From NCBI GenBank assembly GCA_022478985.1, contig JAKSZP010017354.1, forward strand, positions 1-64,000: a DNA stretch of 64,000 nucleotides, read 5' to 3'. The DNA comes from Massospora cicadina (Eukaryota; Entomophthoromycota; Entomophthoromycetes; Entomophthorales; Entomophthoraceae). A program made the translations under genes and the position numbers. The notes beneath the pieces are model-generated. The model was not told where the DNA came from, did no database searches, and saw only the letters and a program-made list of their open reading frames with translations. Below, piece after piece: positions 1,675 through 57,238 of this stretch (within the stretch, counting starts at the first letter, position 1; each line of letters starts with the position of its first letter).

Positions 1675-1881
1675 ATTCTAAATTATTTTAGCTTTTATAT
1701 TGGTAGATAGCTATCAATAAGTTCAGAAACCATTAAACCTATTAAAAATTCCAACCTCCAACCACTTGGCTAAAATCAATTAAGTCTGCCAAATTAATTA
1801 AACCATCAATCTCTTATCTGGAACTATTGAGCCTATCGAATCAACAAAAAAATAAACCACCACTCAGCAAAAACAATTATT

Positions 1882-1898
1882 TTTTTAGTACTAGATAA
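1882..1898 (-). mobile_element. Micro-retroposon insertion, copy 1 (17 bp)
   Basis: A 17-bp segment, TTTTTAGTACTAGATAA, is flanked by perfect 14-bp direct repeats CAAAAACAATTATT at 1868-1881 and 1899-1912. Read on the minus strand it ends ...CTAGTACT followed by A's, the same 3' end as the other four copies in this window. The long target duplication plus A-tail indicates target-primed reverse transcription of a transcript that was copied for only a few bases (extreme 5' truncation). It is the shortest copy seen. Confidence 0.75.
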
Positions 1899-2000
1899 CA
1901 AAAACAATTATTGAACTTACAAAACAGCCAAAAACTACCAACTAAATATCAAAGCCTATGAAACTATTGAATTAAATGAATATGAAAATACACAGCCAAA

Positions 2001-2027
2001 TTGGGTTGGGACCATCTAGTACTAAAA
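2001..2027 (+). mobile_element. Micro-retroposon insertion, copy 2 (27 bp)
   Basis: The insert reads TTGGGTTGGGACC then ATCTAGTACTAAAA. It is flanked by perfect 16-bp direct repeats AAAATACACAGCCAAA at 1985-2000 and 2028-2043. It is on the plus strand, opposite to copy 1 only 100 bp away. It extends the family consensus further 5' than copy 1 (GGGTTGGGACC upstream of ATCTAGTACT). Confidence 0.85.
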
Positions 2028-2640
2028 AAAATACACAGCCAAAAGCTATATAATTACCATTAGAAATATACGTTCTAGATCTTATATAGAACTGATGTTT
2101 AAATTTATATGATTATATTAAACAATTACATATTAGTATTCCGTTCCCAAACTTTATAGAATATTTGTGCCAAGTTTGGTGATTTTTGGTTATTTGCTCG
2201 AGATAATGCATCTATATAAACAAATTAACATACTGATTCTTTTGTAAATAAAATTTAAGATTAATTCTTTTCGATACCCAGTTTAACACAGATTTGTTTG
2301 TGGGCTTAGTTCATCTGATAATCTCATAATTTTTATATTTGTAGATGGTTATCGATAAAATTAAGTAATCAAATTATACTGAATCAATATAAATTTACCA
2401 ACCATTCAGCCATACCCAATTAAACCTATCGAATCAACTAAACCACTAAACCACTTAGCTAAAACCATTAGGTTAAAAATCAACCAATCACCAACCGCTT
2501 CGTAAACCAAAACTAAATGTATCGAAACAACCAAAATCACAACTGCTTACCAAAACCAATCAACTTTATTAAATCAACCAATCACCAACTTTATTTAAAC
2601 CGTTAAGTTTATTAATCAACACAAACTCACTAACCGCTCG

Positions 2641-2901
2641 ACAAAACCATTTAAACTATCGAATCAACCAAATTTCAAACTTCTCAGCCGTAACAATATA
2701 CCGATTTCCACTAAAAACATATAAAATTTTCACTTGTTACATATAAGCCTTTTTATTTTACTATGAAAATTAAAAATCGGGCTTCAAGGTGCACACGGAC
2801 CTCTCGTCCACCTATAGCCAAATTTTCAGAGCTCTACATGCTCTAGTTTTGGCTGGGCATCGCGCACACACACATACACATTTGCTTTTATATATATAGA
2901 T
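2641..2901 (+). repeat. Interspersed-element 3' segment, copy 1
   Basis: The first 125 bases match 3050-3190 (shared AACAAAACCATTTAAA.TATC, CTCAGC.GTAACAATATA, TTTTCACTTGTTACATATAA, TTTTTATTTTACTAT). After a diverged part it ends with CTTTTATATATATAGAT at 2885-2901, the same terminus as copy 2. A short CA-rich run lies just before that terminus. Confidence 0.5.
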
Positions 2902-2904
2902 TAT

Positions 2905-2980
2905 GCCAAGATTCGAACAACTGACCTTTTAGAGTTGAAGTTTAGAGCCAAAAGCTGAGCCGATTATGCTAGAGGAGGTA
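2905..2980 (-). pseudogene. tRNA-like sequence (degenerate)
   Basis: On the minus strand a box A-like TAGCATAATCGG (2960-2971) is followed at tRNA-like spacing by a box B-like GTTCGAATC (2910-2918). No convincing acceptor stem closes the structure and the anticodon arm is weak, so this is a tRNA relic or a SINE head rather than a working tRNA. It abuts the TATATATATAGAT end of the repeat at 2886-2901. Confidence 0.35.
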
Positions 2981-3326: not shown

Positions 3327-3755
3327 TGATCTAATTTTAAATCCAATTCAAGTTATATGTTAAAGGGCAAAAACTGATATAAATTGTATGCTCAAATATT
3401 ATATAAGGTTAGTGATTGCTTTATTTTATATAGGTTTTGATGATATATCCTAATCTCCAGTAAAAATATATCTAAGCAGGGGATTATATTATCTCAATTA
3501 TTAGTTACTTAAAAGACAAATACTGAGAAGTCTTTGAGTGGTATGAATAATGTTATCTTGGGTTGAATGATTTATCTAGCACATACTCTTTTAAAGTTGA
3601 GAATATGTTGCCTGATATGATAGGATATCATCCCACAGGGTAATTGCAGCTAAAGAGGTGCCTGGATTTATAATTTTTAGTTTATATGCTTATATGCATA
3701 TATTATAAACTCAGATTGAAATTTATTCTAAAACTAGTGGTGAGAAAAGTAAGAA
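3327..3755. other. No gene recognised
   Basis: AT-rich sequence between the repeat terminus and the 5' LTR of element A. No motif, RNA gene or coding similarity seen. Confidence 0.5.
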
Positions 3756-3974
3756 TGTCATATGAACATGACATAGTAGTGGGGATCAGCCCCAAAGACA
3801 AGGCTGGGTTCCTGGAGGCCCAGAAGGTGAAGTTGCAGGCCCTTCCTGACCTGAAGAGCACCAAGGACCAATGCTGGGTTGGGCAAAATATGCCCAGGTT
3901 GGGACCAGTGGTGCACCAAACGCCCAGCCCCTGACAGCAGCTCAAGCGTTAAAACAAACTATCTACCATATTAA

Positions 3975-4029
3975 GGCGGATGGTTCAGTTTGCTTAGTTT
4001 CAGAACAAGGGTTTGAAACCCATTCCACC
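3975..4029 (+). other. tRNA-like hairpin inside LTR A (5' copy)
   Basis: GGCGGA (3975-3980) and TCCACC (4024-4029) enclose GGGTTTGAAACCC (4009-4021), which looks like the T-arm/box B of a tRNA. In the 3' LTR the outer stem is perfect (GGCGGA/TCCGCC). No anticodon arm is present. It lies in the upstream (U3) part of the LTR, so it might be a remnant of a tRNA-derived promoter or chance structure. Confidence 0.35.
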
Positions 4030-4184
4030 TATAAAATAACATGCTCAGGTCAAATCCAACTTCAGTTGATAACTTGAGTGAAGTTAGTTTCAGCCTATTT
4101 TACTAACTCAGATGGCAGTATCACCCTATTGGTGAGCCACTGCTTGGGCCCATTGTGGCATAACCCTAATTTTCCCATCCAAGC

Positions 4185-4226
4185 TTAAATACATTTTCCC
4201 TGACCAACATTCCTTGTTGGTTGACT
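4185..4226 (+). promoter_or_regulatory. TATA-like box and predicted self-primer at RNA 5' end, LTR A 5' copy
   Basis: TTAAATA at 4185-4191 lies 31 bp upstream of GTTGGTTGACT (4216-4226). That 11-mer is the exact reverse complement of AGTCAACCAAC at 4615-4625, two bases inside the LTR end. In S. pombe Tf1 the first 11 nt of the RNA fold back and prime minus-strand synthesis from such a site; the TATA spacing here would put the RNA start at or near 4216. The start site is inferred, not shown. Confidence 0.75.
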
Positions 4227-4614
4227 TCCTGAATAAACCTATCCCCCATTTTTAATTCATTTTTTGTTTTATGATATTCCATATGCTCCTGTACATGAGC
4301 CTCTTTGAGGAGGTCTCACATTCTGTTACACTTGCTATTGCAAGTACCATTAAGATCTCCCCTCATGCACCATTTGTCTGCCCAGGATCCCTCCAACCTG
4401 GGCCATCTAACCCCATCCAATATGTGCACCGTGTCACCCTTCTATGGGGTTTTATTATAAAATCTGCAATATTATGCCTCAGCAGTTATTGCTCCAGCAC
4501 CCTCTGCTGAGCTCTAATCCCTCTGGCATTAACAACTAGTTCCCTGTCATTGGGCCTGTGCACTGAGCACCACCACTCTGGGAACTGGAGAGTTATAGAT
4601 GCTCTCCTTATATT

Positions 4615-4625
4615 AGTCAACCAAC
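4615..4625 (+). promoter_or_regulatory. Self-priming primer-binding site of element A
   Basis: AGTCAACCAAC begins two bases after the 5' LTR and pairs over all 11 positions with the LTR segments at 4216-4226 and 15786-15796. It does not begin with TGG, as a tRNA-primed site would. Element B has the same arrangement with three base pairs changed on both sides. Confidence 0.8.
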
Positions 4626-4626
4626 C

Positions 4627-5166
4627 ACATTTTCTTATGTGCACAAACTTTTTCCATGTGGAACTTTTCTGAAGTGGAAACAGTGGCTGTCAGCTGTGGG
4701 CTCCAGCTGTCATTAGCTGCACCACTGTATCCTTATTTTCCCAAAGGTTGGAGCAACTTGGCATTATTTTGGTTGCCTCCAACTGGAAAGTATCTACCCT
4801 TCATGTTTGTACCTGGTGGAGTCGGACACTTTGATGTCTGAAAGTTGTGATTCCCTGACTTTCCACCAAAATTACTAAATTTTATTCTAAGAAATAAATT
4901 TTCTATCACCAGCGCATTTAGATGATGTCAGTGAAATTGGTGCAGATGGGCCTGGTGGTGTTGGCCTTGGATAACATTGGGCATTCCATCACAGATTTAG
5001 GGATAGGGTCATTTGCATCTAAAATGCATTTTATAATGAAACCCTGGCCTCTATCTCTGAACCTTTTATTTGTTTATATGGCTTGGATGAGGACCCTATT
5101 CCTGTGTATCAAATTACCCCTGAGAACCCATGGTTGACCTCTACCATGATCCAGCGCACTCAGAAG
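4627..5166 (+). pseudogene. Leader and pre-protease remnant of element A (left of B)
   Basis: This is the part of A's internal region left of the B insertion. It aligns with B's leader (shared GTACCTGGTGG and TTGTGATTCCCTG near 4813-4855 and 6258-6305) and then with B's pre-protease region around 7190-7390 (LALDN, ENP. motifs, TTTTATTTGTTTATATGG-like stretch). About 840 bp present in B between these two blocks are missing, which would include most of any gag. The frame is broken by stops. It continues at 11657 after B. Confidence 0.7.
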
Positions 5167-5395
5167 GTGGATGTCATGGTTGGATGACATAATAGTAGGC
5201 ACTGATGCTAGAGATAAGTCTGGGTGACAGGAGGCCCAGAAGATGAAACTTCAGGCTCTCCCTGACCTAAAGCACACCTTAGATCAACGCTGGGTGCAAG
5301 CCAAGCATGCCCAGGTTGATACTAATGGGGTGCAAAACGCCCAGCCTCTTATCTTGGCCCAGGCATTGAAACAAACAATTTACATTTTAAATGAA

Positions 5396-5450
5396 GATGG
5401 TTCAATTCACTTGGTTGGAGAGCAAGGGTTCGAGTTCCACTCCAGCTATG
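5396..5450 (+). other. tRNA-like segment inside LTR B
   Basis: CACTTGGTTGGAGAGCA followed at once by AGGGTTCGAGTTCCAC looks like a tRNA D-arm joined to a T-arm with the anticodon arm missing. The 3' LTR reads AAGGTTCGAGTCCC at the same place, an even closer box B. It is in the same relative position as the hairpin in LTR A (3975-4029). Confidence 0.35.
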
Positions 5451-5600
5451 AAATTTAGAGTTCAGGTAAAATAAGGCTTCAATTTATTAATCGAGTGAAG
5501 GCACTTTTGGTGTATTTTACCAAACGGATGAAAGCGTCTGTTTATTGGAGTGTCAAGGCTTGGGCGCACTTCCACAGAACCTGAATTTCCCCATCCCATT

Positions 5601-5641
5601 TTAAATATGTTTTTGTGACCAACATTCCTTGTTGGTCAACT
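5601..5641 (+). promoter_or_regulatory. TATA-like box and predicted self-primer, LTR B 5' copy
   Basis: TTAAATA (5601-5607) is 30 bp upstream of GTTGGTCAACT (5631-5641). This pairs with the primer-binding site at 6063-6073 at 10 of 11 positions, the exception being a G that would form a G-U pair in RNA. The 3' LTR has the perfect version. Confidence 0.7.
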
Positions 5642-6062
5642 TTCTTAAATAAAACCCCCATTATCTTACATTTTTCAATGGTTCCTTGGGCAAATTTGGT
5701 GGTGGACCTCTTTGGGGAGGTCTCCAACCATGTGGGCCACTACCTTATCTTGTAATTTACCAAAATTCCAGGGTCACCTGTGGGCTGCCCAGGTCCCCTC
5801 CAGATTGAGGCACCCAAGCCCCTGACGCCAAGCCACACTTGATTATGGATGCCCCTCTGGGGTCCACTCAAGCAGTGATGTTCCTTACTTATCTGGTATT
5901 ATATGTTGCTCTTTACACCCTTGCCTGGGGTACCCTTTGCACTGGCACCGCTCAAGGTACCTTCCTACCCATTCTTCTAATAGCTAGTTCCCTAGCAATG
6001 TGGGTTTGCATCCCACATCACCTTGCTGGGAGTGAGAGAGTTACAGACACTCTCTTGACATT

Positions 6063-6073
6063 AGTTGATCAAC
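6063..6073 (+). promoter_or_regulatory. Self-priming primer-binding site of element B
   Basis: AGTTGATCAAC starts two bases after the 5' LTR. It is the exact reverse complement of GTTGATCAACT at 11560-11570 in the 3' LTR. Compared with A's site, positions 4, 5 and 7 differ, and the three partner positions in the LTR differ in the compensating way. Confidence 0.8.
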
Positions 6074-7140
6074 CATTTTATTATATATGCATAAGAATTA
6101 TCCGTGTGGGACTTTCATTATTAGTAAATTGGGTGCGCTGACCATTTGTCACTGCCACAATGGTGCTCACCACAGTTTTCTTGTTTGGTTTTGTATTGGT
6201 GCATCTCGGCGTTATTCTTGCAACTACCAATTGGGAAGTGCCCACCCTTCCTGCTTGTACCTGGTGGTCTCAGACTTTTCACAATCCTAATATTGTGATT
6301 CCCTGCCTTTCTCCTGAGATCTACTCGGAAATTCATCAGGCCTTAGCTTCCCTGGAACCAAACCCCTCATTAGGAGAAAACAATTCATCTGGTTCTCATC
6401 CGCTTTTTGTGAGGAGTGGATTTATTGTACCAGTTGTCTCCTGAGGCGGGTGACTGGGTTTTTTGCAATACTCCACACACAGCCGCTCTTGTGGCAAGCA
6501 ATAGGGGTTTGGAACAGGTCTTGGAGCAGAATTGACCTGATGAAGCATCCTTCCATTCCTTCTTTGAGTTCTTTTCTGCATCAAGTGGGTTGTCTGATAA
6601 AAGTATACTTGAGTGAGTTCTGCAAAAAAACCCAGGCTTTGCCTTTAATTGACAAAGTTAAAACGTCATTTCTCCATTCAACCTTGGACATCTCAATGTG
6701 AAACTCCCCAATTTGGCAGTCGCCTCCTTCCAAGTTTGATCATCTTGTCAAAACCCTTTGGGGTAGTTTCTCCACCCCAACCCAGAAGGGGCCAGGTAAT
6801 TTGGCCATCATTGGATCAAATCATATAAATATGGAGGCTGAAAAATCACACGCGCCTTTGAAAATGAGGGAATCTTATCCTTTTAATCCTTCTACTTCTT
6901 CCAAATTTGGAAATGTACAGAGGTCTAGACCCAAGAATGAAGTAAAAGTTTCAGATGATTCTGCCATGATGATGTCACCCATGGTCATCCCTATAAATAT
7001 CACGTCCTCAACTAGTGATATTTCCTTGAAATGTGAGATGCTTCCCACTGATTTCCTCCCCATCTTGGCAGAAATCAGCAACATCAAAGGGTCCAAACCT
7101 GAATTTAATAAAAACAATTCCATTATCATTTTTTTCTCCC
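6074..7140 (+). other. Leader and presumed gag region of element B, no intact frame
   Basis: About 1.1 kb between the primer-binding site and the protease-containing frame. Several short reading frames exist, the longest with a Ser/Met/Asn-rich product at 6801-7154. None shows a capsid-like region or a CCHC zinc knuckle. Either gag is deleted or too decayed to see, or this family is a gag-less derivative. The left ~250 bp align with A's leader. Confidence 0.5.
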
Positions 7141-8046
7141 CAACACATTTTTGAGGTGCATGCTGAGGCATCAGCTCAGGGCTTGGGGGTGATGGCCCTG
7201 GATAACAATGTGCACCAAACCCTTAGAACGAGTGAGGGTTCATTCAAACCAAAAAACGCGTTTTATAATGTGAGCAATTTATCCCAAAATGAACCTTTTA
7301 TTTGCTCATATGGTCTGGATGAGGACTCCATTTCAGTCTACCAGATTACTCCTGAGAACCCTCGTTTGACCCCTATCATGATTAGGGGTTCTCAGGAAGT
7401 GGAAAAGGAACTTTATCACAAATTTAAAGATATATATGCACCTGCAGAAGGTGTGGTAGGATATGTGGCCTCAGTAGTAAGAGTGGCCCACTATCCTTCC
7501 CTCTTCTATGATTCCAAAACATACCCTGATGGCTTGTTCAAGCCAGAGGAAGAATTTTGTGGTGAGTTGATGTCATTTTCTGCATTGAATGAATCCCATT
7601 CTGGATACTTCTTGTTGTCTGCTACCCTTACATCCTCTTATGGAAAGTTCAGCACAACTATTTTGGTGGATACTGGTGCCTCAAAAAATTTTATTGACCA
7701 AAATCTTGCTGACTACCTTGAGTTGAGTTACTCACCAGGTGGTATGGTTAGAGGTGGGGCTTCTCAAGGTATCCCTACATCAAACATCATAGAGTCAGTC
7801 GATTTCCAGATAGGTTCTTATCTATTGTCTGATCAGTTTTAAGCTATCAGAAACCTCTTGTTTCCCATCATTTTGGGTGTTGAGTGGTGGCAGAAGTTTG
7901 ACATCAGAACAAATTTAAAAGAAAACACTTTATCCTTGTCTTTAACAAATGGTCACCAGTTGATTGTTCCTCTGTCTGAGGATAATGCCCAGGCAAATTA
8001 CCCCATTGGCCCAATGTTCCCAGTCCATATCTTGCCCCTTTGCTGA
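7141..8046 (+). pseudogene. Protease region of element B
   Basis: A frame without stops runs to 7842 and carries ILVDTGASKNFID, the retroviral-type aspartic protease site (DTG codons at 7669-7677). After a TAA at 7840-7842 the same frame continues with FPIILGVEWWQKFD, matching the C-terminal LG-W strand of the domain; A has a serine codon at the stop. About 170 residues precede DTG and share no recognisable motif, but are conserved between A and B (VGYVASV.RVA.YP). A 1-nt difference from A near 7990 shifts the frame after 8046. Confidence 0.85.
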
Positions 8047-8059
8047 AGCCCACTGTGGG

Positions 8060-9480
8060 ACTTTTCTTACCTTCCTGTTTGGAGGAGTTGGCATCTTCTT
8101 TTGATGCAGCTTCAGCTAGTATGCTACCAGAACATTCTGAGTTTGATTGTGAATTTAAACTTACTGTGGACCTGGTGCATATTTCTTCTCATATATACCC
8201 ATTGACTGTCCGGGAGGAAGAGGTTTTAGATGTATGGGTGAAGGAGCAGTTGGCCAAAGGTGCCATCTTTCAGCGTACCTCCCTGTTTGCTCCCCACTGC
8301 TCTTTGTGGAGAAGGCGGATGGAACTTTACGTCCATGTGTTGATTATAAAAATTTAAACAATGAGACTGTACCTGACCTCCATCCCATCCCTTTAGATTC
8401 CCAGATTGCGCGCTATGTGTAGAAGGCAAAGGTCTTCTCCAAGCTGGATTGCCTCAATGCGTTCAATAAAATCTGGATAAAGAAGGGCCAGGAATGGTTA
8501 ACCGCATTCTGTACCAGAAAAGGAATTTTCCAGTTCTGGGTTATGCCCTTTGGGCTTAAGAATGCCCCTGCCATCTTTCAACGCCACATTGATGCTGCGT
8601 TGGGAGACTTGTTGGGGTATGTGTGGTTGCCTACATGGATGACATTCTAGTGTTTTCCCCCAATCATGAGTCACATGCAGTTCACCTTTGACAAGTAGTG
8701 GAGAGATTGAGGGCTGCTTGCCTTACCCTCAAGTTTAGCAAATGCAAATTCTTCAAGTCCCAGGTTACTTTTCTGGGCAACATCGTTTTTGACCAGGGCC
8801 ATATGTTAACTCCAGACAAGGAAAAGGCTATTTGTGAGTGGCCAACCCCCACCTCTGTCAAGGAATTGAGGAGCTTTTTGGGGACGTTTACATTCCTCAA
8901 GAAGTTCACACCCAGTCTCTCTGAGGTGGCAGCCCCCTTATATAAGGCTAGCAGGGCCAAGGTGCTTTAGTGGTCCCCCATTTTGGAGGATGCTTTCCAA
9001 GCGGTGAAGTGCACCTTGTTATCCACATCCATCCTTCACCATGTTGATCCTGAAAAGGAGTTCATTGTGTCCTCAGATGCTTCCAACTTTGCCATTGCGG
9101 CTGCCCTGTTACAGGTGGGTGAAGATGGGTCTGAGCATCCCATGGGATATTTTTCTAGGAAAATGTCTCTGCATGAGTTAAACTATGCTGTTTATGACAA
9201 GGAGTTATTAGAAGTGGTGGAGGCACTGATTTATTGGCGTCACCACTTACATGGCTCTTCCCAACCATTCTGGGTATGCACTTACCACTGAGCCCTGTTG
9301 TACTACCGTGCTCCAAATGTTTTAACGTCACGTCAGACCCATTGGCATGAGACCCTTGCCCTATTTACATTTTCCTATGAGTTCACCAAGGGCAAGGAGA
9401 ATGGTTTGGCAGATGCTTTGAGCCGCAACCCTGCTTTGGCTCCCAATCCAAAGGAGGTAGAGATTCACAACACTTGGTTG
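8060..9480 (+). pseudogene. Reverse transcriptase-RNase H region of element B
   Basis: Homologous to A 12300-13700. N-terminal RT segment ([14 protein letters not shown]) is in one frame to ~8280, then the palm ([20 protein letters not shown]), VMPFGLKNAPAIFQ and the active site YMDD (8632-8643) are spread over further frames. The thumb/tether PTPTSVKELRSFLG and RNase H (SSDASNFAIAAAL, DKELLEVVEAL) follow. Breaks: one base missing near 8278, TAG at 8420-8422, frameshift near 8615, TAG at 8968-8970, TGA at 9289-9291. Confidence 0.9.
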
Positions 9481-11100: not shown

Positions 11101-11651
11101 TGTCATGGTTGAATGACATAATAGTAGGCACTGATTCTAGAGATAAGGCTGGGTGACAGGAGGCCCAAAAGATGAAACTTTAGGCTCTCCCTGACCTAAA
11201 GCACACCTTAGATCAACGCTGGGTGCAAGCCAAGCATGCCCAGGTTGATACTAATGGGGTGCAAAACGCCCAGCCTCCTATCTTGGCCCAGGCATTGAAA
11301 CAAACAGTTTACATTTTAAATGAAGATGGTTCAATTCACTTGGTTGGAGAGCAAGGTTCGAGTCCCACTCCAGCTATGAAATTTAGAGTTCAGGTAAAAT
11401 AAGGCTTCAATTTATTAATCGAGTGAAGGCACTTTTGGTGTATTTTACCAAAACGGATGAAAGCGTCTGTTTATTGGAGTGTCAAGGCTTGGGCGCACTT
11501 CCACAGAACCTGAATTTCCCCATCCCATTTTAAATATGTTTTTGTGACCAACATTCCTTGTTGATCAACTTTCTTAAATAAAACCCCCATTATTTTACAT
11601 TTTTCAATGGTTCCTTGGGCAAACTTGGTGGTAGACCTCTTTCTCTTGACA
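11101..11651 (+). repeat. 3' LTR of element B with internal deletion (551 bp)
   Basis: Matches the 5' LTR from TGTCATGG to GACCTCTTT, then jumps to the terminal CTCTTGACA, losing about 340 bp. CTCTT is present at both sides of the join, suggesting a deletion between short repeats. The target duplication GTGGA follows at once, so the LTR end is intact. Confidence 0.9.
11530..11570 (+). promoter_or_regulatory. TATA-like box and self-primer, LTR B 3' copy
   Basis: TTAAATA at 11530-11536 and GTTGATCAACT at 11560-11570, 30 bp apart as in the 5' copy. This copy is the perfect 11/11 complement of the site at 6063-6073. Confidence 0.75.
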
Positions 11652-11656
11652 GTGGA

Positions 11657-15231: not shown

Positions 15232-15310
15232 CCGTTGCTGCCATGAAGTTGGCCCCCGCCCATAAGAACTTTTCCTTGGCGCAAGCCCCTGGAGGGGTTG
15301 AGCCCTGTTG

Positions 15311-15324
15311 GGAGGAGAGGGTAA
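15311..15324 (+). promoter_or_regulatory. Polypurine tract of element A
   Basis: GGAGGAGAGGGTAA ends exactly at the 3' LTR start TGTCATG. Same sequence type as in B. Confidence 0.8.
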
Positions 15325-16370: not shown

Positions 16371-17527
16371 TGTCAATCACCTATAATTAGTGTAATAATC
16401 AGGAAATTGAGTAAGGATTGACAGACACTGTCTTTCAATGGTTGCTGGATGAGGATTACTAAAAAAGATACAGTCAGAGCCCTCAAACAGGACAAACACC
16501 ATATACAAAATTATAATCCTTTGTTTAATCTGGCGTCTTATAAAGTGTACCCATATATAAGAGAGTTATAAAATTGGAAGTAAGCAACTGGGTGTCGTCC
16601 ACAGGGAGCTGTTGCGCGTAAGCAATGTCCTTATAAGTCCTAAGGTTTATCCATGACGTCTCAGGTGACTGATATCTGATTTTTAAATAAAGTTTTTAGC
16701 ACTAAGTGGTCCCACTTTTTAATGAAGTTAATGTTGGGTATATTATAATTTAACTTGGATTTATAATTATTTTACTGGGGATTATAAAAGATAAAGTTAT
16801 GGGGGTGGAAGGCGAGTTGGTAGGGCATACAGCTAACAACCTGAAGGTTGCAGGTTTAATTCCGCCCTTTGCACATCGATTGAGGTGCCAGCTGAAGGAA
16901 GCTATTGGCGGATATTAGGTCTAATAACACTAAAACCTTACCCATGATGGAACAAGAAAGATCAGAATCCTGATCCAGAGGTGGAAAAAATTTCTACAAC
17001 AGAGTTGTCCCTGCTCAGGTTTCATATCAATGTTTACTTTCTTTCTTTCTTTTCAGTAATGTCCATCCACTGGTTGGCTTGCCTCAAATAAATAAATATA
17101 GAAGATAAAGTTACCTTAAGCATATTTGCCAGTTTGTTTAAGAAAGTTTAAACATGGGAAACTTGGGGACTATAAGATAGAGAGTTCCTGCGGAGTCTGC
17201 AGACAACTTGGTTCTTGGTGGGACTAATTCAATAATTTTGGCCTCTAAAATTCTTGTCTAAACCTGTTTTAGAAAGGCCAAAAGGTATCTCAAATGGTAT
17301 GAAACTTTTATATATAATTTCTATATTAACCTTCATTATGTTCTTGGTTTACCAAATCTTGGTCAGGCATTATCATTTCTGACATAATGCTGTTTCCTCA
17401 TTTAAAAATTTTTACTTAAATTTGGTGGAAAATCTTCGAGGGTCTTAGCCCTTTCAGAACACCTGTTTGACTTATTATCCCCCTTAGGGGAAATTAAGGC
17501 CATGTGGCAGTCAGGCATAGCCTTGAC
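16371..17527 (+). repeat. Left LTR-like repeat (interrupted by SINE)
   Basis: About 844 bp after subtracting the SINE and one target-site copy. Aligns with 18105-18902 at an estimated 65-75% identity by eye, so it is old. Confidence 0.55.
16800..17101 (+). mobile_element. tRNA-derived SINE, copy 1
   Basis: About 302 bp flanked by a perfect 12-bp target duplication AAGATAAAGTTA (16788-16799 and 17102-17113). The head is tRNA-like: box A GGCGAGTTGGTAG (16811-16823), an anticodon-arm-like CTAACAA, and box B GGTTTAATTCC (16853-16863), normally the internal RNA polymerase III promoter. The body is unrelated to tRNA, has a CTTT run near 17041-17053 and ends GTTGGCTTGCCTCAAATAAA (17073-17092) plus more AAAT repeats. 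The 3' end matches the SINE at 28824-29148, and both probably borrow it from a partner LINE. Confidence 0.88.
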
Positions 17528-18902: not shown

Positions 18903-21540
18903 ATCACAAGGAAAAATCCTTCTGGAGCTGATTTTGTTACTGACCTGCATTAGACAGGTAGATACTTGCATCAAACAAAGAGAAATATGGATTGGTGAGT
19001 TTGGTCACTAAGAGATGGCAGAATAGATGATGCAAGAATGATTGGAGCTTAACCTTGGAGCTCAAAGTAATATGAGAGGCATGGTTTTTTAGAAAAAGTT
19101 GTCTCTAAACTGTTTTTTAAATATAGAATTCAGTGTTGAGGTTATGGGACTCCTGAACAGCAGCAATGACAATGCGTGCTGACCTGAAGTTATAGAGGCA
19201 GCTCTTTGCTTATAGTTTCAATACTTTATTGTATTAATAAATTTCAGAGCCAGGGTGCTTTCTTGGGGTCTCATAGGTGCTCCCCTCCGCATCATGGGGG
19301 TTACTAGCGCTGAAACCTGAAGCTTTAAGGCGGCTAGTTTTAAGCCTTTTAGCTTGACTTTATGAGATAATCTGAGTGGTGTGCCCAGGGGGTTGGGAGA
19401 CTGTTGGTGGGAGCGAGGATCAGTGATCCAGCTTAGGATTCTGCCCCCGCTTTATCTGAGGAATTTCCTGAGGAGGATCAACAGTCTCCTCTGCAAGGCC
19501 CTCATTTGAAGATTCGGAGTTCATTTTTCCTTTTACAATACTTAAAATGATCCTTGCGTTATGTTCTTTAAAGGTAAGGTGGGGCTCGTTGAGGTGCAAA
19601 TCTATTGTGAAAGCAGGTTTTCAGTCTGCGGTGGTGAGCTAAGACAAAATTAGAGTTGAAGTATATTGTGTAAGAGCTAAAGTAGAGACTAGTTGATGTG
19701 CAGTATGCATTAAGTGAGGGTGGCTAATGTGTGTGTCAAGATGGGTGATGCCTTGTGATAGTCTTGTGATGGTGATGAAGTTAGTGATTGGAAGGTGTCC
19801 TCACATGAAGTGGGGCTTAGAGAGAGGTTGTAAACTTTCTATTGTGTAGCATTTCTAACTGCTTGGAGAAAGGTGTTTGGCGACAGGTACTATACTGGTA
19901 CCCATTGTGTAGGTTGCTGGATTGCCGCCATAGTTGCATTTGTGTTTGGCCTAGTTTATTCCTTGTGAGGTTGTAAGGAGCTTCTTATAAGGAAATAATT
20001 TAACTGTAATGGTTCCCAAGGGCATTACACTATGCAAATTGGGAGGGTGCCTGATTTTGTCACAAAGAAATCTAAGGGAAATTCCCATTAACTTATCAAA
20101 ACCTGAGGTGACAAAGAAAGACTTGGCTTCCAACACAGGTTTTGAAAAGAACACAACATAATCCAGAGTCCACAGTCAATGATGTTTTAAAAGGGTGATA
20201 AAGAGCTGTCAGGGGAAAGATGTGGAAAGTTCTGATCTAGGAACATGATCACTGCACAAAAGGTAAAAATAAGGATGGGTAGCATTGAAATTTATGAGTC
20301 TACTCACTGCGCGTTAGTTTTACTGTTTGTAAAAAAAGTTTTAAAAACTTGTGCTTCAGTTGTACAAGTTGGCTGTTCCTTTGGTTCTAAAGCCTCGTAA
20401 TTTTGAGACTCTTCATATTTTATGCTTGTTTTATGCCCACCGGTACTCTTCAACCCAAATGGAACTTCCAACATCTGATCATCTCCTAAGTAGTATTCAT
20501 CAAAAATCATTAGAGTTATGGTTAGTTAATTATACATCTTTGCTGGTTTTAATGAGAGGTGCTGAGGCTTAAGCATTATGAGGTTCAGTAACAGACCTTT
20601 GAGCTCTTTGCATACTCACACCTGTAGCCACAAGGACAGAAATAGACAGGGGAATCTCTAAAATTAAGACTGTAAATAAAGTTTGCAGCCCCAACTTTGG
20701 TGTATGGGAAATCTCAGGGATGGATTTTTGGCTATTTTTTTATATAAGAATCTTAAAATATGTTTTTAAAAAAGGAAATGACAAATAACCCAACAGCTTA
20801 TAAAATGATTATTGCTGGTTTTAAGCTGAAAATTTAAGAAACAAAAGTTTACAAGGTTCATGCGCCTGGAATTTCGTCCAAGATATTTTTTTTAGTACTA
20901 GATGGTCGTCCAAGATATATTTAAACACTTTGCTTTAAGTGTTATCTAACCAACTTTGGGTTCTGATTATCCACATTAATTTTAATCATCAAAGAGCTTA
21001 GTGATTTTATTGATCCTTACTTATAGCCTTTCCCATTTATACATCTAACATAGGAATTTTTTTAGATATTTTCACCTAATATTACTCTACATATAATATT
21101 TACAATTAAAGGTGCGCTTCTTTGCGCCCTATGTTTGAAGGGTGTTCTTACACTAGCGGTACCCATGAAACTTGTAATATCCTAAATCTAAGTCAAGAAA
21201 TCTATTTATGCACAATATGTTCTGAAGATTGGTAAATAAAGATAAATTTGTGCCTGTATATTGGACTTAAGGTTAAGTGGGACAGACAAAGAAGAGCTGC
21301 CAAGACATATCTCTCATCCAGGGTGCGCCCTAGACCAGTCATCTTTGTAAGCGGCAAAACCTTTTATTTAGTGCCCATATCTGCTCTGAAAGATTCAAGG
21401 CCATATCTGGCTTGATTGGGGGGCCTGGGACCTTGCATTGCTCTTTACTTGAAGAACGAGGTCTAAATCTACTTAAGAAAACTTTGCTAGCGCATAGTTC
21501 TTGTGTGAGGTTTAGAGTTTTATGTCACCAATGTTGGAAG
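18903..21540. other. No gene recognised
   Basis: About 2.6 kb with stops in all frames and no motif I can place, apart from the micro-insertion at 20887-20905. It may include the far (3') end and LTR of element C, but no matching partner LTR was found near 57.5-60 kb. Confidence 0.4.
20887..20905 (-). mobile_element. Micro-retroposon insertion, copy 3 (19 bp)
   Basis: TTTTTTTAGTACTAGATGG is flanked by perfect 13-bp repeats TCGTCCAAGATAT (20874-20886 and 20906-20918). On the minus strand it reads CCATCTAGTACT followed by A's, intermediate in length between copies 1 and 2. Confidence 0.8.
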
Positions 21541-21559: not shown

Positions 21560-22990
21560 GAGACATTAGTTTTTTGTGAAAATTGCAATTAACTTATGAA
21601 AGTTGCACTAGCCTAGGAAGGGACCCAGCTGTTATCATAAGCAGGGTATTCCTTCTAACATCAGGTAGTACACTCCACATGTGACCTTCAAGTGTGTAAA
21701 TCTTTTCCGCTTAAGATCTGGGTGTCCCATGCATCAGGATGGGCTCAACCTCTACTAGTTTATTGCCTATGAACGAGGAAAGTGAGGAATCCTGGAAGGA
21801 GGTATGGATCTTTCAGTGTGGTGCAATTGCTGGTCAAAAGCTCCGTCGTTAAGGACTTAAGTGATGGGAAATTAGACTACTCACTTTCAAGCCAGTTTCC
21901 ATCATGGCGCATTAGATTGTAGGTTCTTGGTGTCTAATATTACTAAGTCACATACTTGGTAGTTAAAAACTTGCTACGCTATTTGTCTATAAAATGCTTG
22001 GCATCATTGGTTGATTTTGTCAATTGGTTCTGGACCAGTGATAAACATTTTAGATATGCGTGATAAAGTCAATCGCTGCTGAAATATTGCTGTAAGTCTG
22101 AGGGCCAATAGTGAACGCAGGGTTTTATCCCAAGTTAGCAAACATAGGCGACATCACGTTGGTAAATGGAAAAAGTTGATATATGATAATTGGATTAGAG
22201 GAAGGCTAACTGTCCGTGTATCTTTAGAGACTATAGCATAACATTGATGATACTGCTTTGATAAGTGCTTAGTATTTCCCATTTGGCCATCTGATTGATA
22301 GTGATAGGCTGATTATCTGCAAGGCTTAGTCCTTAGCATGTAACTAAAGCCTCCTGATATTACGAGGTAAATGAGGTCATCTGTTGCTTTTCACTTCTTA
22401 GGAACACCATACAGGGCAATGATATGCGCCACAAAGAACTGTGCCATGTTTTCATAGCAGTTGTCATCATGTAAGGGATTAATATGGAAGATCTTTTGAA
22501 GCAGCCTACAATCAAAATGTCTCGCATACCCACATGATGTTAGTAAATTCACATCAGAAATCCACTGTGAGTGAAGTTTATGTCCCTGATGTTTGTTTAG
22601 GGGTGGAGGAAGCCATTTCATCCATTATTATTTTTTTTAGTACTAGATGGTCCCAACCCGAGGGGGTTCATCCAATATTATCATATTTGGAATTAGCAAA
22701 GATTAAGCATTGTTCAATCTAGGCTGAAACTTCTTTTGGTAGTCTGTTCAACTAATGGTCTCATTTGATCAAGTAAATGCACTTTTAAAGCTAGGATTAT
22801 TCATGGTGTGTCAAAATTATCCTATAACGCGGGAACACAACTCAAAAAATTATACATTATTCTGGAATTATATTCCCTGTCCTTCTAGGAATACCACCAG
22901 AAGGGACATAATTAGCATCAATCTTGTTCAGAAGGTCACAACATTTAGGGTTGGAAATATGGGATGCTAACACAGCATCCAAAAAAAACT
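21560..22990 (-). pseudogene. Integrase remnant of element C
   Basis: Minus-strand reading gives, in order, SQWISDVNLLTSCGY-like core start, AQFFVAHIIALYGVPKK (to ~22391), AYHYQSDGQ around the third catalytic residue (~22290), a FANLG.NPAFT segment (~22130) and DLVILDTKNLQSNAP (~21900), all standard landmarks of a Ty3/gypsy integrase. Further left there is only weak chromodomain similarity. Frames shift several times. It is split by micro-insertion 4. Its RT-RNase H and protease lie beyond element G at 55.6-57.4 kb. Confidence 0.75.
22631..22666 (-). mobile_element. Micro-retroposon insertion, copy 4 (36 bp)
   Basis: TTTTTTTTAGTACTAGATGG then TCCCAACCCGAGGGGG, flanked by TTCATCCATTATTA (22617-22630) and TTCATCCAATATTA (22667-22680), 13 of 14 identical. 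It interrupts the integrase remnant of C, so it entered a pre-existing transposon. It shows the longest stretch of the main subfamily consensus. Confidence 0.85.
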
Positions 22991-25070: not shown

Positions 25071-25077
25071 TAGGTTT

Positions 25078-39771: not shown

Positions 39772-39773
39772 GT

Positions 39774-46640: not shown

Positions 46641-46859
46641 ACTTTCTCAACATACTACCACTTCAGCAAAAGTCCCTGAACCCACATTGAAGAAAGGCAA
46701 CGCCCTGGCAGCTATGGTGTAATACTTCGCCATAAGATCAGTCACTGACCTCCCCACAGTGACCTCAATAAAGGAACGCACAAAGAAATATTCAAAGTGT
46801 ACAAAGCAAATTGATTGTCACCCCACTCCAAGTTTGACATTAATTTTTGCCTAATGATG

Positions 46860-48170: not shown

Positions 48171-48439
48171 TGCTGTCTGAGTCATCATCATCACCAGAAA
48201 ACATTGCTGCCATCATGCTACCCGCAACACCTTAATCTCACCCTCAACAACCACACTTAAGCCCTCTGACAACGTGATGGGGCCTTCGTGACAGGACACT
48301 CCTGAGCTAAGCTCACCAATCAGCGCTGATGGGTCCCTCCAGGGCGCAGTACTGGATGAGCAAACAGAAACTATTAAAAGACAAGCAATTGGGGAGCAAA
48401 TATAGTCGCGGAAAAACCCCCCAAGTTGGTACTAAAAAA

Positions 48440-49740
48440 AGGATATGGTGATTTATTTTTGGGATTGCATATGGGTGCCCATAAGTTTATGGCCCCAAGT
48501 CATAAAGGAACATCATGACCCGCCGATAATGGGACACCCTGGAGGAAAGAAGACCACCATCCTGATAAAGAGAACATATGATTGAAAGTATTGATAAAAG
48601 ATGTGCCAGCTTGGATAGAATGCTGCCTAACCTGCGCACAATCCAAATTTAACAGAACTGGACAAAAAGGGCTCCTACATCCACTACAACAAGCAGTGGG
48701 ACCATAGACTTCAGTATCAGTCAACTTTATAGTAAGTTTACCCAATTTAAAAGGGTTTGAAGAAAACATGGTGGTCATGGCAGATTCATAAAATATGGCT
48801 TGTTCAACCCATGCTTAACTACAACCACGGCGGAAGACATGGATTACTTATTTGTGATACATGACTTTACCACGCTTAAAGTAGCAAAATATATAATTAA
48901 TGATAGGGGACTAAAGTTTACATTATGTTTGGTATGCCTTGTGCGATGCTTTTCACATAAATCCTATTCTTATTGTAAGCTTATCACCCCAGTTCAATGG
49001 ACCAAACCGAGCAATTTAATAAGTCCCTAAAGCAATATCTCCAGTGCTACGCCTCCACTGCTCAGGATACCTGGGCTGGAGACCTGGCCTTAGCCCAATT
49101 CTTGCACAATAGTTACCTGCACGCCTCTATTGGAATGTTGCTGCTGTATGCCAACTTAGGCTACACCCCATAAATTGCATATGGGCCAAAATTATATAAA
49201 TGTTCCCACGGTGGATAACTTTGCAACACACATCCAGAAAATACACCATCAGGTGCATATGCAACCAACGAAAGCCACCAAGGATGCTAAGCGATTTGAT
49301 GACTGAAAATGGAGAGCAGCGCCCAAATATCAGTTGTGCGACCTACTGATGGTGGACACAAAAAATATCAACCTCAAGGTACCCTGCCACAAACTGGCCT
49401 ATAAAAGGGCAATAATGTTCCCTATCAGCAAAGTCTTAACCAATGGGTCTTTTTATTTGAATTTGTCCCTGCACTGCAAATTCCGTAAGTCTTTTCATGC
49501 ATCAGCAATGTCACCGTTAAAAACTTGCAGAGATTAAACTCTTGTTGGTAGAAAGAATGCTAGAATTCGAGTTGGAGGAAATCTTGGGTTCAAGAAAAAT
49601 TAAATAGATAATTCAATACTTGGTGGCGTGAAAAAGTACACCGCCTACAACAACAGTTGGACTATGGCCTGGGATTGTAGTAATTGTCAGGGTTTTATCA
49701 CTGAGTTTCATGCACAAAACATTGCAACAGACCTGCTGCT
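48440..49740 (+). pseudogene. Integrase with chromodomain of element F
   Basis: Zinc-binding part: EHHDPPIMGHPGGKKTTILI and ECCLTCAQSKF. Core: SVNFIVSLPNLKGF, where the first catalytic Asp is Asn; DRGLKFT keeps the second Asp; QTEQFNKSLKQYLQ keeps the third Glu. LLMVDTKNINLKVPCHKLAY and FPISKVL make up the C-terminal fold. A decayed chromodomain (FELEEILGSRKIK, IQYLVA, NNSWTMAWDC) lies at ~49565-49690. Stops and frameshifts throughout. Confidence 0.83.
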
Positions 49741-49849
49741 ATAAAACACCAAACCCTCACAGTTATTAATATTTCTTAACCTCACAAAAACTATGCTCTA
49801 GTAGGGCTCTGGAGGGAGGAGTAGACCCTGCCCTTTTAGGAAAGGGTAA

Positions 49850-51286
49850 TGTAAGGATCCTGGCTGCACCCATAAAATTGAATTGGTTGATTAACTCTTT
49901 CTAAACGAAAAAGAGGGACTGTTCTCAAGATCTTCTGTTATAAAAGTAGCAGATTTAGGGCATAGACTTGCCGAGCTGTGGGTTTCTACTGAGGCCCTTC
50001 ATTTCAATTTACAATAAGACAAAGAGCAAAAGGGGATGATTTCTCTGGGAAGTTCATTTGGCTGAAACCTATATCATGAAAATTGCAACAATCTGCAATG
50101 AAATCTAAGCATGATTGGGTATATTGAGACTGAAGTCCTGACTGGAACATCATCTCAGAAATCAATCTGGCAACGGACCTTTAAAGGGAAAGAAAATTTT
50201 GTTAAGAAAATTGAAAGATATGCTGACATGCTGGAACCCTGATGGAAGTGAAAATTTCAGCAACAGGAACTGCAATTTGGGGCACCCAGAATGTGCAAGC
50301 TAGGCCATAATGCAAAAGTCCTGGCGTTTTTTAAAAAATTTGTGCGTCCAGTTGTAAGAAATGTTCCCCAGTCCCCGCCCCTCACTTCCCTTCAACTATA
50401 AAGAGCCAGTACTTTGCTGATGATAGAGTGCTAGGTTATTTTGTATTATCCTTAATAACTTTTTAATTTTTTAAACTACTTTAACATTTTTGTAAGTTTC
50501 AACTAGTATGGCTAACCCAAGGAACCACTCAACCAATGGAGGTTCTGCACTCATTTGTATCAGCAAGAATGATGGCCATCACATTGGCCGTTTCAGCTAT
50601 TGCCTCTCTTGGCACATAAAACCTTGGGAGTCATACCCTACAAGATTCGCAAGATGTTCCATCTTGACAAAACGACTATCAAGAATCTCAAACTGAACAG
50701 AATGACCAGATGTTAGACTTAATCCATCCAAATAATAAGGAAAATGGGAATATTATTTGGCGGTCACATCCCAGGAAGACACAGTTGGGAAATAACTCAT
50801 TGAAGCAACTGCCACCCATCAGTATCAAGTATGCACTCAAAAAGATTGGAATTTCAGCCCAAATTTAAACCAAGGAGGGTGGATTGATTCATCACTTAAC
50901 TAATTCGCTCCAAACATTGAGGAAATGTGAACTGAGATTGAGAATTTTGCTACTCAAAGCGAAACACTGGATCAAATCAATAAGACCAACATTGCTGCAC
51001 GTTATCAGGTGCATATCCAATTGAAATAGGAGCCTTACTCAAATGAAAACACAAAATGTGCGGAACAGTCCCCTCCTTTTAACCCTGCCAGTTCAACCCC
51101 CATATTTATAATATGGTCAAGGTTACTTCCAGTGATCAGCTTATTGGTTGAGTGTGGATGATGTTCATAAACCAATAATTTCAGCACTTGTTCTCATGCG
51201 GGTTATTATTCACATATTATCAGAATGGCAATGCTTTGCAGACTTTTTATTTTATCATGGGTATTGGAGCATTCCTGATGGAAGAT
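49850..51286 (+). repeat. 3' LTR of element F
   Basis: 1,437 bp, uninterrupted. Contains ACTATAAAGAG near 50395 as a probable TATA box (ACTATAGAAAC in the 5' copy). The right end is set by where G's RT resumes at GTTGA (51287). Confidence 0.85.
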
Positions 51287-53735: not shown

Positions 53736-53968
53736 GTAATGAGAAAATAAAAAGCCTGATCTTTATTAATGGGTGCTAAAAGCAAAAGAGCAGCGGGTGC
53801 AGGATCAGAGACTAGGATAAGAAGTGGACTTCTAGTAGCTAGTGGGCTGTGCTGCTTGCACTCCAAAAAAATAACTTTAATTCATCATTGTCAAAAAACA
53901 AAGTAAAGTTCTGGATTAAAATCAGCTCCTCTCTAAAAAAGGAGAAAAAGCCTGGATTCAAATATGAG

Positions 53969-55404
53969 TGTGAGTTCATAGTAACCAAGGAGGTAATTAC
54001 TTAGACCATTACAGAGAGGATAAAGGATATCACCAAAAATTAGTGGATGATTTATCAAAGATGTTAGCAGATGATTTAAAGAAGACTGGCCTTCTATCTT
54101 GGTTTGTTATTATCTAAGACGAGACCATAATTCCAGGGGCTCAACATACCTAGCGACTCTGAAAAGGGACGTTCTAGGGCTATGTAAGAAGTAAAAATGT
54201 TCAAACATAAACCAAAAGCACCATAAACCAGCAAATTGGCTGAAATGGGGTCAACCGTGGGTCTTGTGGGGGCAACCCACAGGGACAGGAGAGGCAGGGA
54301 TGATGGAGACTCCTCTGAGTATACAATTGTTGGTTATTACATGTAATATACTAAAATGGTGGAAGGGTACTTACTAGATGTATTGCAGCATTTTCAATTG
54401 ATTGGTGGGGCATATTAAGGTTTCATACGTGCTAGGCACACACAATAACTTTTGAGGATGGTTGAGGGCATAAGCTCTTAAGCTCAGACAGAGAGCGGCG
54501 AGTTGCTAAACTATTGGATCAGAACATCCGCTTAAAATTAATTTTTCTACATTGTGCAGATGGCGGCATGATTTTTCAAATACAATTAAGAGAAAATTTA
54601 ATTATGGTGTAGTAGGCGGATTTTAAGGAAATAATAAGGGGATAATAAATTTATTGGAAAAGGGGTTCATAATATAAGGAATAAATAGGAAACATACCCT
54701 AAGGAGGGGCTGTTGCCTTTATAGGAGGGGGGAGAGCTATAGTTCCTAAAGCACTAGTCTGGGACTGGGCCTCTGAGGCATATAATGATATAACGAGTTA
54801 AGAAATAGCTTAAGGGTTGGGAGAAGATTAACATAGATTTTAGATAACATCTTAAAGATTTTTGATATCTTATATTATGGGTTGGTGAATAATTTGGATT
54901 ATAAGTGCAAGTTTTGTACAGATTCTGTTCTGATTGGTAAATTAGCATAGATAATTCTGCCTGAAGTCGTTTCAACTGAGAAAACAATTAAAAAACCTTT
55001 AAGGTGGATTGAGTAATCCAGGGGGTTGGTATGAGATTCATGAACTAATTAAGACTCATTACATATTGTTAGATTTGTTTGGGCTCATATGGTATTTGGG
55101 GCTTTTTGGGTTTTTTTGCATATTTTGAGTAACCAGGCTAAGTGTGGGATGATCCCTAGGGTAACGCCAGAGGCCCTTTGAATGGTAAATCTCCATGAAG
55201 ACATTTTCTGTTATTTTTTAATAAGGATGAAGAGAAAAAAGGGAGATGGAAGCCATTAGGGGCAAAGAAAGTAACCCAAAATTTATCTACTACATGATCA
55301 AGGTTTCTCAAATGGGATAAGGAACTACGAGAGCTGGGGTCTCTCTTACGCCTGAAAAGGTACTTATCAAAATCCAAGTGGAAAAGCCAGCATCAAGACT
55401 TACA
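53969..55404 (-). repeat. 5' LTR of element G (edges approximate)
   Basis: Partner of 23005-24410. Minus-strand TATA box CTCCTATAAAGGCA at ~54729-54716 (CCCATAAAGACA in the other copy). Its minus-strand start, TGTAAGTC at 55404, is preceded by C's coding remnant. Confidence 0.65.
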
Positions 55405-55599
55405 TTACAGAGCTTTGGGGCGCGGAATTTTTGACTAGGCTTTAATTTGGGGGAAGCGACTGTGTTGATAGCTGGAGGTAGAGACAGAATGAGCTGTTTA
55501 GGTGGATTACCATGACTAAGTCAGAGTTTGTATTTATGGTGGTACCCATTAGGGGATTTTAGATTATGATGTCAAGAGATATTGGGTAGAACTTTTTAC

Positions 55600-56440
55600 A
55601 AAGGCATATTGGAAGTTGATCTTATAAGATTACAGTGAGTCCTGGTCTGCCTATGCACCAACTTTTGGGGTTGCAATAGTAAGTGATTAACTTCTGTTTG
55701 AACAACCACAGTATGTTAAGCACTTTTGAAGGTACCGTCAGAGTATCAATAATCATGAATTAGCAGCCAAATCTTTATTGTAGATGGCTCATGCGCTTTA
55801 TGACACTAGCTTCCTAGAAAAGTAAGCCATAGGATGTTTCCACCCATTATGTTATTACTAAAAAGATGGCACCAACAGCAGTGCCAGAGACGCCACAAGA
55901 CACATTAAAGAGCTTATATTCATTGGTATACTAATAACAGAAGCATTAGTTAATAACTATTCTATTGCCTCTAAAAGCATGTTAGCACTTTGGGGTCTTA
56001 AATAAAAAGACTCGTTCTTGCCTGTTAGAGTTTAAAGGAGTAAAGTAAATTTGAAAAGATGGTGAGAACTTTTCAAAAAGAAGTGACTATTCCTTGGAAG
56101 CTGCACAGTTGCTTCAGCTTCATCCAAGTTGGAAAAGAGAGGATGGCATCTAAACTGAGTGGCGCGATGGAATGACCATCTTTAAGTAGTAAATAACACA
56201 GGAATTGAACTTCAAAGTTATAGAACTCCAATTGTATGTTTAGAAACTAGAACATCTTTGTGGACTGCTGCAGTTGTTGCACCCATATCAATATTAGTGT
56301 AGATCAATGGCGAGCAAAAAGATCAAAATGTTTATGTTTGTTATTGCACAAGGGAGCCTGAGATTACCCAGAACGTCATCAATGTGATGCTTATAGACTG
56401 CTGGAGCGTTTTCAAACCAGATAACGTAACCTTATAGTAG
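55600..56440 (-). pseudogene. RT-RNase H remnant of element C
   Basis: Minus strand: WFENAPAVYKHHIDDVLGNL (~56405) then RLPCAITNINILIF, the RT active site with YIDD degraded to TNIN. RNase H pieces follow: NVSCGVSGTAVGAIF (~55905) and VVVQTEVNHLLLQPQKLVHR (~55700), corresponding to the DAS, TDH and Y...L..RQ landmarks. Several stops. The next part of pol, integrase, is on the far side of G at ~22.9-21.6 kb. Confidence 0.7.
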
Positions 56441-57025
56441 TATTCAATACCAGGTGTTAATTGCTATCAATCACCCTTGGCCAGAATTGCCCCGTACTTG
56501 ATGGAAAGAGTTCACCAGGTGGAGTTTAAAGAAAAGTTTTAATTTGTATTTGCTTTATTGATTGAGACCTTACAATTTTAAGATATGAATTAGAGACTAT
56601 AACAATATTCAGAAGTCCATAATACATGCAAGGTCTCAGAGTGCCATTGTGTTTTGCGCAAAACTATTAGAGATGACACTGGAGATGATTTATTAATCAC
56701 TTGCCCCTTTTTTAGCATATTTTTTAATCCAGGTCTTTAACGCCTTGTCTTTCTTTGCGGTATAGGAATATAGGGGTCAATTTTTTTATAATAAGGTAAA
56801 ACGTAGATTGGAAACTCATACTCAGTTAAGAGTAATTTAACAGCTGATTAGCGTTTTAACAGATAAAAACAGATTCAAAAGGTACAAGAATAAGAGGTAA
56901 AGTAGATAATTCTAGAACAACATTAATATAGGAGTCGTACTGTTGCATCACTGCATCTCCTGTTGTCATAGTGGGGAGAATTATATCATTATATGAGAAT
57001 AGGAGGTTAAGGATAGCATGTTCCT

Positions 57026-57076
57026 CTTTTTTAGCACTAGTGGTGCCCAACCCAAAAAGGGGGAGACGCTACACAT
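57026..57076 (-). mobile_element. Micro-retroposon insertion, copy 5 (51 bp, second subfamily)
   Basis: The insert begins CTTTTTTAGCACTAGTGGTG and continues CCCAACCCAAAAAGGGGGAG then ACGCTACACAT. It is flanked by perfect 16-bp repeats AGGATAGCATGTTCCT (57010-57025 and 57077-57092). On the minus strand it reads ...GGGTTGGGCACCACTAGTGC followed by TAAAAAA. This is the same layout as the other copies but with CACCACTAGTGC in place of ACCATCTAGTAC. Longest copy and therefore most informative on the parent sequence. Confidence 0.85.
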
Positions 57077-57238
57077 AGGATAGCATGTTCCTATCCAAGT
57101 CAATGCTTACTGACTGGCAGCGCCACCATTATAACGTTAAAATCACCAGGTACAATAACTCTGTTATTGCCAAGAAATTTTACAAGAACTCATAATCATG
57201 GGCAATAAAACGCAATGGCTTGCGCAAAAATTGTGTCA

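Follow-up and report, generated by a model that had tools for sequence, protein, structure and literature searches.

How do inserts of only a few tens of base pairs, each bracketed by a short direct repeat, come to stand in a large fungal genome? The question is raised by a stretch of 64,000 nucleotides of Massospora cicadina (contig JAKSZP010017354.1; below, the window means this whole stretch). An earlier note had described five micro-retroposons in it, 17 to 51 bp long, sharing a 3' end and an A-run, and had attributed them to target-primed reverse transcription of the kind used by long interspersed nuclear elements (LINEs). It is well supported that these inserts are target-primed reverse-transcription copies of one LINE. 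Further, their truncation is not graded, which the note had not seen: with few exceptions, the copies read are either at most about 44 nt long or range from 0.5 kb to full length.

All five inserts were found in place, with flanking duplications of 14, 16, 13 and 16 bp that are perfect and one of 15 bp with a single mismatch. The lengths given for them also stand overall, except that the insert at 22.6 kb measures 35 or 36 bp according to where its A-run is cut. A sixth, older insert was absent from the original list. The six inserts, A to F, and their duplications are as follows.

1868..1881, no strand: left copy of the target duplication of insert A, 14 bp, perfect
1882..1898, minus strand: micro-retroposon A, 17 bp
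1899..1912, no strand: right copy of the target duplication of insert A, 14 bp, perfect
1985..2000, no strand: left copy of the target duplication of insert B, 16 bp, perfect
2001..2027, plus strand: micro-retroposon B, 27 bp
2028..2043, no strand: right copy of the target duplication of insert B, 16 bp, perfect
16693..16714, minus strand: micro-retroposon F, older, 22 bp, variant CTTAGTGCT
16715..16729, no strand: decayed target duplication of insert F, one substitution and one indel by eye against the sequence immediately before 16693
20874..20886, no strand: left copy of the target duplication of insert C, 13 bp, perfect
20887..20905, minus strand: micro-retroposon C, 19 bp
20906..20918, no strand: right copy of the target duplication of insert C, 13 bp, perfect
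22617..22631, no strand: left copy of the target duplication of insert D, 15 bp, one mismatch
22632..22666, minus strand: micro-retroposon D, 35 bp, or 36 bp counting one further tail base
22667..22681, no strand: right copy of the target duplication of insert D, 15 bp, one mismatch
57010..57025, no strand: left copy of the target duplication of insert E, 16 bp, perfect
57026..57076, minus strand: micro-retroposon E, 51 bp, CTAGTGCT variant
57077..57092, no strand: right copy of the target duplication of insert E, 16 bp, perfect

Several comparisons within the window single out the same loci. The word CTAGTACTAAAA occurs there four times exactly and once with a single mismatch, and these occurrences are inserts A-E. 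A screen for direct repeats that was blind to the family returned 56 pairs, eight of which adjoin an A or T run of at least five; five of the eight are again inserts A-E. Perfect repeats of at least 13 bp separated by 10-60 bp number four in the window; 200 first-order Markov shuffles gave 0.145 on average and never more than 2. When all 1,040 A-runs of at least four As were scored for flanking duplications, nine reached a score of 11 or more, including the five inserts. The remaining four are two in A-rich repeats at 1623-1649, one AT-rich run at 345 and one at 1899, which is the site of insert A read on the complementary strand. Insert F is less clear: its duplication scores 6 without gaps and ranks 12 among 1,045 window A-runs in a gapped test, and a paralogue of about 70% identity at 18.4 kb lacks the insert together with some adjoining sequence. 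Taken alone, the window holds no copy above 51 nt among six, giving an upper bound of 39% for longer copies, a figure superseded by the genome sample below.

It should be noted where the inserts lie and what they do not resemble. Inserts A and B sit inside an A/C-rich, low-GC region of diverged repeats (410-2680). No Rfam family reached its gathering score anywhere in the window, and the only two weak matches near the 57-kb insert fall in its flank. Folded alone, inserts E and D form no structure better than shuffled sequences. Pfam found no LINE domain in 111 of the 240 open-reading-frame pieces of the window that have at least 52 amino acids and lie outside two coding regions of long terminal repeat (LTR) elements; the same scan returned LTR-type RNase H in three pieces, a weak Tf2-1-like SH3 domain and weak single matches.

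To see how far the family extends, the window's own assembly was searched (1,469,884,898 bases, or 1.47 Gb, in 16,968 contigs). The exact word CCATCTAGTACTAAAA occurs 32,266 times, about once per 46 kb, against 0 for the reversed control, so that the many thousands of copies foreseen in the earlier note are indeed there. This number is a lower bound on family size, because it leaves out mutated tails, those cut to fewer than 12 nt and the CTAGTGCT relatives, to which inserts E and F belong. Exact words placed further from the tail become rarer: 32,266 at about 12 nt, 10,471 at 21 nt, 3,764 at about 42 nt and 2,564 at about 66 nt, with controls of 0 to 1; since the words differ in length and in local family variation, the counts are not pure survival rates. 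In a collection of viral contigs, a scan that may omit the window's own genome, the family patterns gave 0, 0, 0 and 2 matches; by eye, both fall within repeated sequence that looks coding, the match being followed by just four As, and they are taken as chance. A second collection of genome contigs, which may likewise omit this genome, gave 0 matches to the family pattern. A reverse transcriptase profile matched 105 viral-contig stretches, none of which was confirmed as a relative.

The same 3' sequence and A-run also end much longer copies, which belong to a LINE of about 6.44 kb and are mutually 97-99% identical in the main alignments. Five of the 21 long copies were followed to their 5' end, and all five have perfect duplications of 15-17 bp, similar in length to those of the micro-inserts. 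Three of the five share a 5' end within about 10 nt (about 6.44 kb), while the other two measure about 6.1 and 5.8 kb. The parent has an endonuclease match to PF03372 (Exo_endo_phos, 3.1e-10), a family which we take to cover the APE-type LINE endonucleases, a reverse transcriptase match to PF00078 (RVT_1, 8.8e-34) and a C-terminal zinc knuckle, PF13966 (zf-RVT), that falls below the cut-off in copy L031 (9.6e-6) and above it in copy L032 (2.4e-6). Against solved structures the reverse transcriptase region scores 131 bits to human LINE-1 ORF2 and about 99 bits to R2. In ORF1 a CCHC-like motif is seen by eye, where Pfam gave no match. In L031 the endonuclease, reverse transcriptase and zinc knuckle are divided among separate, overlapping open frames, which were searched apart and unmended. 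Judged by these predicted domains, namely an APE-like endonuclease, a reverse transcriptase and a C-terminal zinc knuckle, the parent would be an L1-type LINE, and the micro-copies appear to carry a 3' end identical to that of an autonomous-type element in their own genome. The master is thus a LINE with endonuclease and reverse transcriptase, where the earlier note had held that a non-retroposon master would count against its reading, and target-primed reverse transcription of the LINE type is borne out.

Two features of the long copies deserve mention in their own right. The ORF1 region of L031 (2993-3745) contains a direct duplication of a unit of about 376 nt, common to the five compared long copies and partial in L152. 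Further, the copy of about 6.1 kb, L033 (the same as L016), has an internal deletion of about 117 nt near the 3' end, with intact tail and perfect duplication; it could be a spliced or template-jump product.

Next, we read two samples of copies one by one, neither of them random. The first consists of 92 of 100 listed CCATCTAGTACTAAAA places on the largest contigs, C1-C7 (eight on C7 were left out), and the second of 60 of 100 listed places of copies of at least 21 nt on contigs C8-C27; the search pattern demanded AAAA for the first sample only. A duplication was scored when found within 150 bp. In both samples the copies have a fixed 3' end with an A-tail and a variable 5' end.

In the first sample micro-copies, none of them above 60 nt, account for 83 of the 92 places: 77 have a scored duplication and six short ones do not. 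This is in line with the near-total 5' truncation already proposed. Hits without duplications had been named as evidence that would tell against a retroposon family; with 77 of 92 scored, such hits are the minority. The duplications are perfect in 58 of the 77 scored micro-copies (11-19 bp, median 16). At control A-runs of five or more in the fetched loci, duplications were found at 24 of 995, and at least three of these (L137, L146 and L049) lie on family tails with a base change. Eight further places are of 0.5 kb or longer: one of 501 nt with a 17-bp duplication containing one mismatch, six that match the LINE over at least 600 nt, and the internally deleted L016. The last place, L064, matches the LINE to 92 nt or more and is counted neither with the micro-copies nor in the 0.5-kb class.

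The lengths fall into distinct groups. Among the 77 scored micro-copies the templated part is 9-28 nt in 58 and 36-43 nt in 19, with none at 29-35 or 44-150 nt. In the second sample the 5' ends of the 60 copies lie at 20-33 nt (18), 39-44 nt (26), 136 nt (one) and at least 1,000 nt (13), and two are short copies without a scored duplication.

The sequence of the LINE offers some landmarks for these positions. In the reference form AATAAA ends 40 nt before the tail, which places the second cluster of 5' ends just downstream of AATAAA or in its last As. Folding of the last 84 nt of the 3' end plus 12 A predicts two stem-loops, one of them from about 8 to about 36 nt from the tail; the prediction is modest, with z = -2.1 and 7 of 200 shuffles folding equally well. 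Among the 57 of 77 inserts that can be fitted to a LINE reference, target and LINE have on average 0.88 bases of microhomology at the 5' junction; with shuffled targets the average is 0.39, and the highest value in 500 shuffles is 0.70. The left duplication begins with AA(A/G)A, A having a frequency of 0.94 and 0.86 in the first two positions, an edge that is partly circular through the A-tail. Priming on the A-tail by a T-rich nick would be expected to give such a start.

What do these observations say about how the inserts arise? The shared 3' end, the A-tail, the duplications, the LINE parent, the positions of the 5' ends and the excess of junction microhomology are all observed. Together they make it likely that target-primed reverse transcription of this LINE mostly aborts within about 44 nt, and that the events that pass this point usually become long. 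The steps would run in the following order. The APE-like endonuclease of the LINE would nick the target, the T-rich end of the nicked strand would prime on the LINE RNA at its A-tail, and copying by the reverse transcriptase would begin. In about nine of ten copies read, copying would have ended no more than about 44 nt from the tail, before the AAUAAA signal. The short complementary DNA (cDNA) end would then be joined to the target, often across a few matching bases, and repair would leave a stub flanked by duplications of 11-19 bp. Events that get beyond the early stop would usually continue to 0.5 kb or to full length. The early stop itself is probably reverse transcription that breaks off, perhaps in the region of AAUAAA and the terminal stem-loop, rather than the copying of pre-cut RNA.

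Since the same element makes copies of about 6.44 kb, its enzyme can be processive. That most copies read are at most about 44 nt, their ends falling within the terminal stem-loop or slightly upstream of it, and yet long ones exist is explained by an unstable early phase followed by a committed one. A more specific form of this proposal, to which we give even chances, is that reverse transcription here has two phases, an abortive and a productive one, as transcription by RNA polymerase does. About 90% of the events would stop within about 44 nt, bounded by the stem-loop and AAUAAA, and the processive phase would run for kilobases; the stops would persist in the genome as stubs of 10-45 bp, by estimate tens of thousands of them.

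A number of points weigh against early abortion. Six of the 92 places are short without a scored duplication, and L064 counts in neither length class. The scored copy that ends at 136 nt means that the length gap is not empty, and the word-based copy counts extend to about 66 nt from the tail at most. Further, 20 of the 77 scored inserts do not fit the LINE references at the 5' junction, several having extra bases and some a substitution. The A-tail blurs the start of the duplication, so the nick preference is soft evidence. Finally, a discrete RNA might have its 5' end where the lengths stop so sharply, at 39-44 nt.

The alternative that survives best, which we consider possible but rather unlikely, is that the host interferes. 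A defence would cut the nascent cDNA, evict it, or stop the enzyme shortly after priming, and the stubs would be scars of restricted insertions, not of a weak enzyme. An enzyme that copies about 6.44 kb speaks for it, as low intrinsic processivity alone leaves the length gap unexplained; however, nothing separates a host factor from a property of the enzyme in its early phase.

The limit at 39-44 nt leads to another explanation, unlikely in our judgement, in which the template is a short 3' RNA fragment of about 40 nt (from after AAUAAA to the A-tail, along with shorter ones) that results from decay or processing and is mobilised in trans. The stubs would then be complete copies of tiny RNAs. 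Of the 45 scored short copies in the second sample (copies of at least 21 nt), 26 end at 39-44 nt beside AATAAA and only the 136-nt copy extends beyond this cluster. In contrast, the 5' ends of most micro-copies in the first sample (58 of 77) are spread over 9-28 nt rather than gathered at one point, and the microhomology at the junctions suits the joining of a cDNA end.

It is improbable that we are looking at ordinary graded truncation, of which the window happened to sample the short tail of a broad length distribution. Loss of the 5' part is general in LINEs, described as 'often severely 5' truncated' in the part of PMC12458276 available to us. However, a broad distribution does not fit a sample in which 83 of 92 copies measure 60 nt or less and a single scored copy (501 nt) lies in 61-600 nt, with L064 at 92 nt or more, nor one in which 1 of 60 lies between 45 and 999 nt against 13 of at least 1,000 nt.

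Highly improbable is a short interspersed nuclear element (SINE) or another small non-autonomous family that has a source gene and a promoter of its own. Short length and very high copy number would suit it, but copies that match over at least 500 nt run on into the end of ORF2 and the 3' untranslated region of the LINE. No separate body is seen, and no tRNA-, 7SL- or 5S-like head is found in these copies, a check outside which the 136-nt copy and L064 fall.

That the inserts are DNA-transposon footprints or chance direct repeats, for which short inserts between repeats and nothing more would speak, is next to negligible: perfect duplications that range over 11-19 bp are not of fixed length, and together with one fixed, A-tailed end and a LINE parent they disfavour a transposon, while the window shuffles, the scores of window A-runs and the 995 control A-runs make chance very unlikely.

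The cause of the frequent 5' truncation of LINEs is an old open question. Here an estimated tens of thousands of stops less than 50 nt from the start lie beside long copies of the same element, which makes both the position and the cause of the stop testable; the same record of stubs makes the joining of short cDNA ends testable. If the two-phase proposal is true, the stubs form a genome-wide record, at nucleotide resolution, of where reverse transcription aborts. Insertions this short are expected to escape ordinary repeat masking. With each stub come an A-run and a duplication of 11-19 bp of target, and small unexplained indels in other large genomes may share this origin.

The window also contains elements of other kinds. 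At 16800-17101 on the plus strand there is an insert of about 300 bp with a tRNA-like head, A- and B-box-like motifs by eye and a tail of the (AAAT)n type. It is flanked by a 12-bp duplication, AAGATAAAGTTA, at 16788 and 17102, and it is absent from the paralogue of about 70% identity at 18.4 kb. The insert resembles a SINE, with a tail unlike that of the micro-retroposons; neither ARAGORN nor Rfam gave a call for the tRNA-like head. Several decayed LTR elements of Ty3/gypsy type, with paired repeats 4-12 kb apart, occupy 3754-16183, 32227-40563 and 42495-51284. Their best integrase relative is 52% identical, and the relatives listed for integrase and reverse transcriptase, 28 of them for the latter, are mostly unnamed or distant; a query with the protease region found no relatives. 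Over the whole window the observed/expected ratio of CpG is 0.32. GCG and ACG are retained better than TCG and CCG, a pattern that may reflect context-dependent loss of methylated CpG; CTG and CAG are not depleted.

How, then, does this family compare with known systems? Among the literature matches listed, judged by title and start of abstract and with thin coverage of subscription papers, there is no two-state length distribution of a LINE and no such family of stubs. The accessible portions of PMC12210899 and PMC9237045 add nothing further on either. The family resembles the 5'-truncated copies of L1-type LINEs in its endonuclease, reverse transcriptase, A-tail, duplications and fixed 3' end with a variable 5' end. 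It differs from them in length: about 90% of the copies read do not exceed 60 nt, lengths from 45 nt to 0.5 kb are few, and three of five traced long copies are full length, while human L1 truncations are spread over kilobases. SINEs are also short, very numerous and made by LINE machinery, but the micro-copies match the LINE itself, with no body or promoter region of their own seen.

Other published observations come close to parts of this picture. In the detection of maize SINEs, the last 30 bases of LINE consensuses served as anchors and severely truncated LINEs were told from SINEs (PMC2774510); in the sections seen, the truncated copies are merely set apart, without length distribution or mechanism. 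For human NF1, the portion of PMC3219598 consulted describes an exonic poly(T) insertion that may represent an Alu or L1 after severe truncation. It shares the near-total truncation, to almost the tail alone, but is one case of unsure parent, against many thousands with a known parent here. Tailless retropseudogenes of therian mammals are truncated pieces of retroposed RNA with target duplications, numerous in dedicated screens (PMC5322556, seen in part). These lack oligo(A) and stem from many host RNAs, whereas the micro-copies all derive from one LINE, retaining its 3' end and A-tail and lacking the 5' side. Severe 5' truncation of LINEs is thus known, as far as the parts of PMC2774510, PMC12458276 and PMC3219598 at hand go, and the new part is a nearly two-state outcome at this scale.

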